DNA from: Lachnospiraceae bacterium
GTDB lineage: Bacteria > Bacillota > Clostridia > Lachnospirales > Lachnospiraceae
Length of the DNA: 64,000 nucleotides
Direction: 5' to 3'
NCBI GenBank assembly: GCA_024403275.1
Contig: JAKSSD010000002.1
Coordinates: 103,332-167,331 of the forward strand
Below the pieces are notes generated by a model. The model searched no databases. It saw nothing but the letters and a program-made list of their open reading frames with translations, and was not told the origin of the DNA. Below are positions 46,017-48,632 of the stretch, in pieces; the stretch's first letter is position 1, and each line of letters begins with the position of its first letter. The position numbers and the translations under genes were made by a program.

Positions 46017-46568
46017 ATGAAAGTTAATTTTTTTACAGCACAATTACTTTTATGGAAACGAATATTTGATTACAAGGGGAAGAGCAGTCCAAAAGAATAT
46101 TGGTATCCTGCCATTGTTCAGATAGTATTATGTGTATTAGGTGCTTTTAATTTATTACTTAGCACAATTTTACTTAAATTTGCAGCATTTAATATCGCAT
46201 TTGCTGTTATAGGTGTATTGTTTCTTGTTTATCCTACACTTGCGATTATTCCAAGCATTGCATTAACAGTCAGAAGACTTAGAGATGCTGGGAAGAGTGG
46301 ATGGTGGACAATGCTTCTATTATTTGTTGGTGTTGGTACAATTATTGTTCTATATTTGTGTGCTGGAGCATCAACTGTTTCTGGGGCAATGTTTAGAAAT
46401 ATATTTGATCCATTTTATAATGAGGCACCAGCGGTATATGGACCACCAGAATGGTTTGATCCAGATAATAATATTAATAATGATGTGTATGGACCGCCTG
46501 ATTGGTTTGATCCTTCAGATAATGAAGAACCAGCGGTGTATGGACCACCAGATTGGCTTGATGATTAA
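46017..46568 (+). CDS. DUF805 membrane protein with a C-terminal 17-residue tandem repeat
   Basis: The first 125 residues form a DUF805 domain: a starting WKRIFDYKGKSSPKEYWY and the family motif LTVRRLRDAGKSGWW, with about three to four membrane segments. The last 45 residues are three copies of a 17-residue unit: VYGPPEWFDP at 140, VYGPPDWFDP at 157 and VYGPPDWLDD at 174, separated by seven Asn/Asp/Glu-rich residues; FDP at 130-132 may be a degenerate earlier unit. The tail is acidic, Trp/Tyr/Pro-rich and polar. AAAGGGGG precedes the ATG. A radical SAM/SPASM gene follows 46 bases downstream. Confidence 0.85.
   Translation: MKVNFFTAQLLLWKRIFDYKGKSSPKEYWYPAIVQIVLCVLGAFNLLLSTILLKFAAFNIAFAVIGVLFLVYPTLAIIPSIALTVRRLRDAGKSGWWTMLLLFVGVGTIIVLYLCAGASTVSGAMFRNIFDPFYNEAPAVYGPPEWFDPDNNINNDVYGPPDWFDPSDNEEPAVYGPPDWLDD
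46434..46565 (+). repeat. 51-bp tandem coding repeat (VYGPPDWFDP units)
   Basis: Two full units and a partial third of 51 bp encode the repeated tail of the DUF805 protein. Synonymous differences exist (GTATATGGACCACCA, GTGTATGGACCGCCT, GTGTATGGACCACCA), so the protein motif appears conserved rather than recently copied. Confidence 0.85.
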
Positions 46569-46614
46569 TATTATTTAGAATAATAGCAAAGTACTTATAT
46601 GGAGTATTAATTAT

Positions 46615-47706
46615 ATGAAAAACAATTCCGGCAGAACAATTGATGTTAAAATTGAACATATGCAGGAACTTGCTAAATATCGAGATGAACAATTGAGACC
46701 TAACCCAGAGCTTAGGTCTCTTTTCTTAGAAATTACACCATTTTGCAATGAGCATTGTTTACATTGTGGATCAAGATGTGGCGATATAGATGTAAGTGGA
46801 ATGCTTTCAAAAGAAGAAATATTTAAATTATTAGATGATTTTAAGCGTGACTTTAATGTAAAAAAGACAAGATTTTGTGTCACAGGAGGAGAACCTCTTT
46901 TAAGGCCTGAATTTTTCGAGATAATGGAATATGCTAACAAGCTTGGGATTGGCTGGGGCATGACTTCAAATGGCACACTTATTACTAAAGAAGTGGCTAG
47001 AAAGCTAAGGGATACAGGTCTTCGTACAGTATCAATAAGTGTTGATGGTCTCAAAAATAATCATGAATGGTTCAGACAGTCACCAGGAAGCTATGAAAAA
47101 ACAATAGAGGGTATTAAAAACCTTTTAGAGGTGGGTATTTCTCATGTTCAAATAACTACAGTTGTTTATCATAAGAATATAAATGAATTACCTAAAATGT
47201 ATAAGGAATTCAAAAAAATAGGAGTTAAATCCTGGCGAGTTATTAATATAGAACCAATTGGTCGAGCAAAAGAAAATACGGACTTAATGTTATCAGTTGA
47301 TGAATATAAGAAATTGTTTAAATTTATACGTGATAACAGATTCAAGAGTAAAATGGAAGTTTGCTACGGGTGCTCCCATTATCTTGGGGCAGACATGGAA
47401 GCGGAAGTCAGAAAGTGGTATTTCCTTTGTAATGCAGGAGTTTATACGGCCAGCGTAATGTATAATGGAGATATCGGTGGATGTTTGGATATCGAGCGCC
47501 GACCAGAGCTTATACAAGGTAATATTAGAAAAGATAACCTTAAGGATATTTGGCTTAATAAATTTGAGAATTTTCGAAATGACTATAGAAAGACTGGAAA
47601 ATGTGCCAACTGTCCAGATTACAAGTTCTGTGCGGGAGACTCATTCCATACATGGGATTTTGAAAGAATGGAGCCAGCGCTTTGTATGAAGGGCATTTTG
47701 TTTTAA
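46615..47706 (+). CDS. Radical SAM/SPASM-domain protein
   Basis: The 363-residue enzyme has the AdoMet cluster motif CX3CX2C at 44-51 (CNEHCLHC), GGEP at 91-94 and a C-terminal SPASM domain with eight further cysteines: 250, 253, 272, 290, 330, 333, 339 and 357, enough for two auxiliary [4Fe-4S] clusters. SPASM enzymes typically modify peptides or proteins (anSME, sactionine and PQQ maturases) or bind them. No leader-binding RRE domain is seen. The repeat-tailed DUF805 protein directly upstream is a candidate substrate (inference). The ATG is reached after an AT-rich gap; GGAG at 46601 is the ribosome site. Confidence 0.9.
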   Translation: MKNNSGRTIDVKIEHMQELAKYRDEQLRPNPELRSLFLEITPFCNEHCLHCGSRCGDIDVSGMLSKEEIFKLLDDFKRDFNVKKTRFCVTGGEPLLRPEFFEIMEYANKLGIGWGMTSNGTLITKEVARKLRDTGLRTVSISVDGLKNNHEWFRQSPGSYEKTIEGIKNLLEVGISHVQITTVVYHKNINELPKMYKEFKKIGVKSWRVINIEPIGRAKENTDLMLSVDEYKKLFKFIRDNRFKSKMEVCYGCSHYLGADMEAEVRKWYFLCNAGVYTASVMYNGDIGGCLDIERRPELIQGNIRKDNLKDIWLNKFENFRNDYRKTGKCANCPDYKFCAGDSFHTWDFERMEPALCMKGILF

Positions 47707-47721
47707 TAATTGGAGGGCGAT

Positions 47722-47898
47722 ATGGATATATCATGTGAAGAATGTGCCAATTTCGTTTTCGATGATGATATAGAAGATTGGGTATGTCTTGTTAATATGG
47801 ATGAGGATGAGTATGTCAGATTTATGACAGATTCTCATTATCAATGTCCATATTATCAATGTGGAGATGAGTATAAGGTAGTTAGACATCAGATGTAA
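47722..47898 (+). CDS. Small cysteine-rich acidic protein (DUF6472-like), 58 residues
   Basis: Five cysteines at 5, 8, 22, 42 and 47 in an acidic, aromatic-rich chain; the pattern CEECANFVFD...VCLVNMDEDEYVRFM...QCPYY...DEYKVVRHQM resembles the small DUF6472-type proteins widespread in Lachnospiraceae, as I recall. A metal or cluster site is likely. TTGGAGGGCGAT is the ribosome site of the ATG at 47722, so the TTG at 47710 is not the start. It lies between the radical SAM and sirtuin genes. Confidence 0.75.
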   Translation: MDISCEECANFVFDDDIEDWVCLVNMDEDEYVRFMTDSHYQCPYYQCGDEYKVVRHQM

Positions 47899-47912
47899 TA
47901 AAGGGTGATTTT

Positions 47913-48632
47913 ATGAATGAAAAAATAGCCACATTGAAAAAGTGGATTGATGAAAGTGATAATATAGTATTTTTTGGTGGAGCTGGCGTATCTACAGAAA
48001 GCGGTATTCCAGACTTTAGAAGTGTAGATGGACTATATAATCAAAAATACGATTATCCGCCAGAAACAATATTAAGTCATACATTCTTTATGCGAAAAAC
48101 TGATGAGTTTTACAGATTTTATCAGGATAAGCTAATGATTGATAATGTATTACCTAATAAAGCACATCTTAAATTAGCTGAGCTTGAGAGAGAAGGTAAG
48201 CTAAAGGCAGTCATAACTCAGAATATTGATGGGCTTCACCAAGCCGCAGGAAGCAAAGAGGTAATGGAACTTCATGGAAGCATTCAGAGAAACTATTGCA
48301 TGAAGTGTGGAAAGTTTTTTGATTTTAAATATATGAAAGAATCAAATGGAGTTCCTCATTGCGATGAATGTTCGGGAGTCATTAAGCCAGATGTTGTTTT
48401 GTATGAAGAAGGGCTTGATGAAGTTACTATTGAAAAATCCGTTAATTATATAAGAAATGCAGATGTTCTTATTATAGGTGGAACATCACTTGCAGTTTAT
48501 CCCGCAGCCGGGCTTATTGATTATTACAGAGGAAATAAACTGGTATTGATTAATTTGTCTTCAACACCAAAAGATGGAATGGCTGATCTATGTATAGAAG
48601 GCAAGATTGGTGAAGTTTTATCACAGATTTAG
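47913..48632 (+). CDS. Sir2-family NAD-dependent protein deacylase
   Basis: The 239-residue sirtuin has GGAGVSTESGIPDFR (NAD), TQNIDGLHQAAG (catalytic), LHGS with the catalytic His, and a zinc module CMKCGKFF...CDEC. It removes acetyl or other acyl groups from lysines using NAD. The residues (Tyr/Arg) selecting succinyl substrates in class III (YxxR) are not evident; YDYPPE occupies the helix region. AAAGGGTG is a fair ribosome binding site. Confidence 0.93.
   Translation: MNEKIATLKKWIDESDNIVFFGGAGVSTESGIPDFRSVDGLYNQKYDYPPETILSHTFFMRKTDEFYRFYQDKLMIDNVLPNKAHLKLAELEREGKLKAVITQNIDGLHQAAGSKEVMELHGSIQRNYCMKCGKFFDFKYMKESNGVPHCDECSGVIKPDVVLYEEGLDEVTIEKSVNYIRNADVLIIGGTSLAVYPAAGLIDYYRGNKLVLINLSSTPKDGMADLCIEGKIGEVLSQI

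Follow-up and report, generated by a model that had tools for sequence, protein, structure and literature searches.

The window, by which we mean the whole 64,000-nucleotide stretch of Lachnospiraceae DNA analyzed here, contains a DUF805 membrane protein whose stop codon is separated by a 46-base gap from the start of a SPASM radical SAM enzyme, with a small DUF6472 protein as the third gene (Table 1). The initial annotation had described the DUF805 protein as ending in three 17-residue units built on YGPP[DE]W and the enzyme as lying 46 bases downstream with ten or more cysteines, and both descriptions were borne out. The YGPP motifs start at residues 141, 158 and 175, a period of 17, and read VYGPPEWFD, VYGPPDWFD and VYGPPDWLD in context. 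The enzyme has 13 cysteines, 11 of which are invariant across a 28-row alignment that excluded one degenerate relative (L013), and it carries the radical SAM CxxxCxxC motif (Cys 44, 48 and 51) as well as the SPASM domain PF13186; no Pfam domain beyond PF04055 and PF13186 was found in it. In the host genome (96% complete), the DNA pattern encoding YGPP[DE]W has three matches, all of them in the tail of this DUF805 protein. When the 53-residue tail was shuffled, at least one YGPP appeared in 177 of 20000 trials, with a maximum of two and three never reached, and when the protein was shuffled over its full length, one or more appeared in 79 of 20000.

Table 1. Positions of the genes and repeat units at the locus, numbered along the window.
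Feature	Position	Strand	Details
DUF805 membrane protein, proposed substrate	46017..46568	+	183 aa; PF05656, 65.6 bits (cut-off 25.7)
Repeat unit 1, YGPP at residues 141-144	46437..46448	+	Translation and DNA pattern
Repeat unit 2, YGPP at residues 158-161	46488..46499	+	Translation and DNA pattern
Repeat unit 3, YGPP at residues 175-178	46539..46550	+	Translation and DNA pattern
SPASM radical SAM enzyme, 363 aa, proposed Tyr-Gly modifier	46615..47706	+	PF04055, 102.4 bits; PF13186, 39.4 bits
DUF6472 protein, 58 aa	ATG at 47722		Third gene; PF20076, 92.2 bits

We searched a family sample of 150 genomes, in which the enzyme was present at E <= 1e-40 in 11 (the host and 10 others), and scanned named genomes, from which the best 80 of 565 enzyme loci were taken; these 80 loci and 10 from the family search make up a set of 90. 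A same-strand YGPP ORF was found in 79 of the 90 loci and stood directly beside the enzyme in all 79, bearing in mind that locus counts are not counts of independent events, as L008 and L038, and likewise L080 and L082, share identical enzyme ends and L019 and L023 belong to one assembly. Seventy-four of these adjacent carriers lie upstream of the enzyme and two downstream, each within 150 bases; the remaining three (L047, L049 and L052) are just upstream by their coordinates, in loci where the enzyme ORF is over-extended upstream. The carriers hold 362 YGPP sites within 22750 aa; in the other six-frame ORFs of the 90 loci, there is a single YGPP in 551132 aa. A profile of the single repeat unit matched 6 of the 11 enzyme-bearing genomes of the family sample and none of the 139 others (E <= 0.01; Fisher test, 3.2e-8). 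In a class sample of 391 genomes, 16 of which have the enzyme at E <= 1e-80, the repeat profile matched 4 of those 16 and none of the 375 others (E <= 0.001; Fisher test, 1.9e-6). Both tests assume independent genomes, and these genomes are kin, such that the two probabilities come out too small; the repeat profile (A2) was derived from enzyme neighbors, such that diverged tags elsewhere may escape these counts. Among 14 new enzyme loci from the class search (L145-L158), a YGxP partner adjoins the enzyme in 13, with diverged tags that include LYGVP, MYGSP and MYGPPP, while the partner in L157 reads AYGID and has no Pro. Judged from these comparisons, the pairing of enzyme and YGPP repeat is real.

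The YGPP neighbor is absent in 11 of the 90 loci: L008, L013-L015 and, among the best 80 of 565, the seven loci L028-L032, L038 and L058, L038 and L008 being one contig. Of the seven genomes concerned, five have a repeat-tailed DUF805 protein elsewhere. In G150-G153 this unlinked protein and the enzyme sit on different contigs, as they do in G120, which is also G155; one unlinked repeat protein (L101) is flanked by what look by eye like trigger factor on one side and peptidyl-prolyl isomerase on the other. In the two remaining enzyme-bearing genomes, G154 and G156, no repeat protein was found at E <= 1, and their enzyme loci (L032 and L058) are truncated, one contig starting 575 bases ahead of the enzyme and the other within it. 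The enzymes of L014 and L015 each adjoin a double zinc-ribbon protein with a single YGPMPE or YGPKPE; relatives of this carrier occur in 3 of the 150 family genomes, all three of them enzyme-bearing and each with a YGP, and the third copy (G120) reads VYGPPP. In L013 (G041; enzyme and neighbor at L013:1074-2532, minus strand), the enzyme has lost its CxxxCxxC segment and the neighbor ends in RSGPPEMAG, with no Tyr, an apparent case of joint decay of enzyme and tag. The initial annotation had proposed the repeats as the target of the enzyme, and had named as contrary evidence the finding of repeat-tailed proteins mostly without the SPASM gene. Enzyme and repeat co-occur, whether as neighbors or on different contigs, and no enzyme-less genome of either sample matched the repeat profile (0 of 139 and 0 of 375). 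The check named in the annotation thus came out in favor, and the proposal that the tail is the target is strongly supported.

We asked which residues of the tag are constant using the 362 YGPP sites, which come from 120 same-strand ORFs of the 90 loci (80 of these being the best 80 of 565). Since tallying YGPP alone would be circular, anchors outside the motif were used within the carriers. Of 83 upstream DP..N anchors, 81 are followed by YG at a single fixed spacing, and the other two resemble dockerin loops; of 96 downstream P[DE][WM][FLY] anchors, 95 are preceded by YGP. V, L or I precedes the Tyr in 325 of the 362 sites, and Trp follows PP[x] in just 85. Partners such as those in L145, L148, L155 and L158 keep YG and have no W-x-D/E unit beside it. 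The constant core is X-Tyr-Gly-Pro with X mostly Val, Leu or Ile, and the Trp and Asp are variable. The earlier suggestion that Trp, Phe/Leu and Asp of the units are target-like residues did not survive this comparison, and a Trp-based target was rejected on conservation. Together, the anchor counts, the aliphatic residue before Tyr and the rarity of Trp indicate that the enzyme most likely targets the Tyr-Gly unit rather than the Trp/Asp part.

By pattern rules, the 120 same-strand YGPP ORFs comprise 39 with a lipobox, 30 dockerin-like, 26 DUF805-like and 25 others, the last class including lipoproteins that escape the lipobox pattern; Dockerin_1 scored above the Pfam cut-off in two of three dockerin-like carriers tested. 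Carriers span DUF805 proteins, lipoproteins, dockerin proteins and zinc ribbons, and up to at least eight tag copies stand in tandem on one carrier (L022). Membrane anchoring, which the initial annotation had considered unusual for a RiPP, is instead usual here, with lipoproteins and DUF805 proteins ranking among the most frequent carriers. The DUF805 protein of the window has hydrophobic stretches at about residues 29-86 and 94-126 and a positive loop, RRLRDAGKSGWW, which by the positive-inside rule suggest that its N-terminus is cytoplasmic and its tail outside. In Ruminococcus and related loci (L087, L088, L095 and L096) there are at least two tandem YGPP-tagged proteins per enzyme, several of them of dockerin type, which may link the tag to cellulosomes. 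Small basic proteins with CIYGPPEM-type tags and no evident signal peptide are encoded at L057:4117-4314 and by ORFs in L062, L064 and L065, that of L057 adjoining another carrier. In L156:3-703 (minus strand), two short membrane proteins stand beside the enzyme, one reading MYGSPE and the other TEYAPP, possibly a natural variant with Ala after Tyr.

To assess other neighbors, we clustered ORFs of at least 60 aa within 3 kb of the enzyme in the 90 loci. Local synteny and one antisense ORF aside, the carrier cluster, with members in 62 loci, is the sole wide one: the second cluster, found in 16 loci and always on the strand opposite the enzyme, is an ORF antisense to the enzyme in the example inspected, and the remaining clusters comprise at most 10 loci each, as synteny predicts. 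Relatives of DUF6472, SIR2, DUF951 and an acyltransferase were found near the enzyme in 10, 9, 8 and 10 of the 90 loci, respectively, and were rejected as system members, being confined to at most 10 loci of the closest kin; in the window, the DUF6472 and SIR2 genes follow the enzyme at 47722-48632, an arrangement seen in the closest kin alone. The cysteine-rich protein of 58 residues noted earlier as the third gene is therefore present, as DUF6472 (PF20076), but does not hold as a member of the system, given its 10 of 90 loci in syntenic close kin; on present evidence it is local synteny only, with a function unrelated to the tag. No leader-binding domain, peptidase or exporter recurs within 3 kb of the enzyme in these loci (ORFs of at least 60 aa), in agreement with what had been noted for the window, and no PlpY-like (RRE) gene recurs in the same set, from which shorter or very diverged ones would escape. 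No leader, of the Nif11/NHLP type or otherwise, was seen.

A chemistry that acts on a site resembling the tag is known. Spliceases (PlpX) excise tyramine at XYG, leaving a reactive alpha-keto-beta-amino acid, and TIGR04103 (nif11-class peptide radical SAM maturase 3) is presumably the PlpX family (IPR026482). In a Nostoc locus, an enzyme above the TIGR04103 cut-off (853 vs 725) adjoins a Nif11 precursor that ends in GSIALYGLPPELF and has the core ALYGLPPELF, and PlpX-like enzymes of Bacillota adjoin NHLP-like precursors with LAYGVP and TAYGIARP; by their sequences, these cores look like VYGPPEMF units. The literature gives XYG as the splicease motif (PMC10533398, PMC11002830), with tyramine (135.0757 Da) removed by PlpX and MYG and LYG as natural sites (PMC10533398). 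It is also reported that PlpX works with a partner, PlpY (PMC11002830, PMC10373908), that several sites are permitted per substrate (PMC10373908), that spliceotides are protease inhibitors (PMC11117315, PMC10373908) and, in PMC10533398, that the leader is not required, that splice tags include YGLP, that the FtsZ table shows most of the insertions to be not accepted, and that 27 other systems are characterized and 939 predicted. Two further loci were read on the PlpX side. The DUF1843 peptides of L180 and L181, whose neighbors are radical SAM enzymes of GDL type or related to it, carry PYGAGI, PYGVAI and LYGGAM, and also LYAAGI, MYAASI and MYMATM, such that YG is not always kept. On a host contig outside the window (C169), a second SPASM radical SAM gene (L169:3176-4225, minus strand; TIGR04103, 208 bits) is overlapped by a gene for a zinc-ribbon protein (L169:4194-4535, minus strand) with two VYAGP motifs (RFVYAGPVS and GVYAGPETM), possibly a parallel enzyme-tag pair.

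The best named model for the window enzyme is TIGR04133, at 287 bits and under its cut-off of 425, while no match to TIGR04134 or any other NCBIfam model was found for the window DUF805 protein up to E = 1. Heme-type radical SAM models come next, AhbD scoring 173 bits and thereby exceeding TIGR04103 (124 bits vs a cut-off of 725), and MftC, at 125 bits, scores similarly to the latter. Among solved structures, the best sequence matches are SkfB, 5wgg (a radical SAM domain protein) and cytosylglucuronate decarboxylase, with no splicease named among 11. The final version of our tree, from which the AcgM, TIGR04347 and Rhizobium rows were dropped (they formed long branches in the first tree) and to which five heme-type rows were added, resolves three groups: YGPP enzymes together with TIGR04133 and the YGVP/MYGSP forms (20 rows, support 100/98), PlpX-like enzymes (100/98), and heme/TIGR04053/MftC enzymes (99/97). 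We rejected the argument that this places PlpX closer than the heme enzymes, because any unrooted tree of three one-sided groups will put two of them together. Diagnostic columns were likewise rejected as evidence for PlpX kinship: three are common to the YGxP and PlpX sides, two to the YGxP and heme/MftC sides, and six to the PlpX and heme/MftC sides, and enzyme kinship by itself therefore does not point to PlpX. The HCGS signature is among the three YGxP-PlpX columns, Gly52 and Ser53 being common to all 8 PlpX-side rows as against 0 and 1 of 8 heme/MftC-side rows, respectively.

Three plasmid loci illustrate the named pair: the Parabacteroides and Treponema enzymes exceed the TIGR04133 cut-off, and the Phocaeicola enzyme is 60% identical to the Parabacteroides one. 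The adjoining lipoproteins of the Parabacteroides, Treponema and Phocaeicola loci read CEYGSP, CYGMP and CEYGTP, respectively, with the YGSP, YGMP or YGTP no more than about 15 residues beyond the lipobox Cys; TIGR04134 was confirmed for the first two, and the Phocaeicola lipoprotein was read by eye. L158 bridges the two forms, as its TIGR04134 lipoprotein (52.3 bits, cut-off 39.8) reads CGMYGPPP.

What the enzyme does at this core can be weighed from the partner side. By analogy with PlpX, we lean slightly towards Tyr-Gly splicing as the likeliest chemistry. Counted against it are the low TIGR04103 score of the window enzyme and its higher scores on heme-type models such as AhbD, the three-group tree and the column counts, which do not favor PlpX kinship, the lack of a leader and of a recurrent PlpY-like gene among the clustered ORFs, the AYGID partner of L157, the TEYAPP of L156, the partial loss of YG in DUF1843 peptides on the PlpX side, and the two enzyme-bearing genomes in which no repeat protein was found. 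There is a real possibility that the Tyr of YGPP is altered otherwise, by a Tyr-Val/Pro C-C cross-link, desaturation, a decarboxylation-type change or epimerization, a reading that draws on the same enzyme-tag pairing and is consistent with the distance of the enzyme from TIGR04103, with the column counts of 3, 2 and 6 and with an MftC score on a par with that of TIGR04103, the altered pair in mycofactocin being Val-Tyr; the constant Gly after Tyr and the YGxP-like cores beside PlpX-type enzymes fit a splicease better. Because splicing and these other products add up, modification at Tyr-Gly of one kind or another appears very probable, on the basis of the partner motif and not of enzyme kinship.

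Readings that place the chemistry elsewhere fare less well. The tag could be a docking or recognition sequence, with the enzyme acting on a different region of the protein or on a small molecule; the great differences among carriers and the heme-type models as next best matches would suit this, but the tag is the common part of these very different carriers, it is multiplied in tandem as a target would be, and no other neighbor recurs beyond local synteny, which makes docking improbable. Still less probable is a target in the Trp, Phe and Asp of PEWFD. Triceptides contain a three-residue cyclophane and a conserved aromatic-x-[D/N/K/R/S] motif, and W-F-[DE] is indeed found in the window and in many close kin, whereas no such motif is conserved in the tag, in which Trp is present in so few of the 362 units and YG persists in partners that have no W-x-D/E unit. 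That a short acidic, low-complexity tail of biased composition came to lie beside an unrelated enzyme by chance is hardly credible in view of the shuffles, the genome co-occurrence and the fixed spacing of DP..N and YG.

The pairing and the constancy of Tyr-Gly are established by comparative sequence analysis; the modification of the tail, its chemistry, its topology and its use are inferred. The shared YGPP tag is probably a site that the enzyme chemically rewrites on surface-held proteins. In the window, the SPASM radical SAM enzyme would modify the Tyr in every [V/L/I]-Tyr-Gly-Pro-Pro unit along the DUF805 tail, and the modified tail would then be exposed on the outside of the membrane; with an outer tail and a cytosolic enzyme, modification would need to precede membrane insertion. 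In relatives, the same tag would be presented on lipoproteins, dockerin proteins and zinc-ribbon proteins. A likely use would be a surface array of reactive groups that trap proteases or form covalent links, and we speculate that Val, Leu or Ile before the keto group would suit either role.

The initial annotation had called this a possible new system, which stands only in part, as the TIGR04133/TIGR04134 enzyme-lipoprotein pair is already named in NCBIfam, where it is marked hypothetical. Our literature search found no repeat array on DUF805 or dockerin proteins and no shared YGxP tag, the YGPP matches looking unrelated by title. Some of this enzyme group may already figure in a published survey of spliceases (Scott et al., 2022). 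The full proposal, that rumen and gut Clostridia put genetically encoded, leader-free, RRE-free splicease arrays of backbone ketoamides on ordinary surface proteins (membrane proteins, lipoproteins and dockerin proteins of cellulosome type) rather than RiPPs, as tethered protease traps or covalent linkers, is a tentative one and we regard it as doubtful in its entirety. If true, radical SAM backbone splicing would extend beyond secreted peptides to a general tagging system, in which a variety of surface proteins in rumen and gut bacteria would each bear reactive groups, up to at least eight in number. Being short, seemingly leader-free and modular, the tag could also serve site-specific labeling, and the named hypothetical pair gains a defined residue and becomes directly testable.

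Among known systems, TIGR04133/TIGR04134 (NCBIfam hypoth_equivalog) are the closest predicted kin, in the same tree group as the window enzyme (100/98). They differ in that the window enzyme scores below the cut-off and its carrier is a DUF805 protein with no NCBIfam match, and in that the TIGR04134-type lipoproteins we read (L140, L141, L142 and L158) have one tag copy each whereas the window tag is repeated. MftC and AhbD/NirJ have the SPASM/twitch superfamily in common with the window enzyme and give second-tier profile scores, but they form a separate tree group and act on other substrates. PlpX-type systems resemble ours in the combination of radical SAM and SPASM domains, the HCGS signature, an XYG in the partner (VYG three times in the DUF805 tail) and room for several sites per substrate; they differ in that the window enzyme is below the TIGR04103 cut-off, with no Nif11/NHLP leader seen and no PlpY-like neighbor found, and, unlike PlpX-type substrates, those of the window type are whole membrane, lipo- or dockerin proteins.
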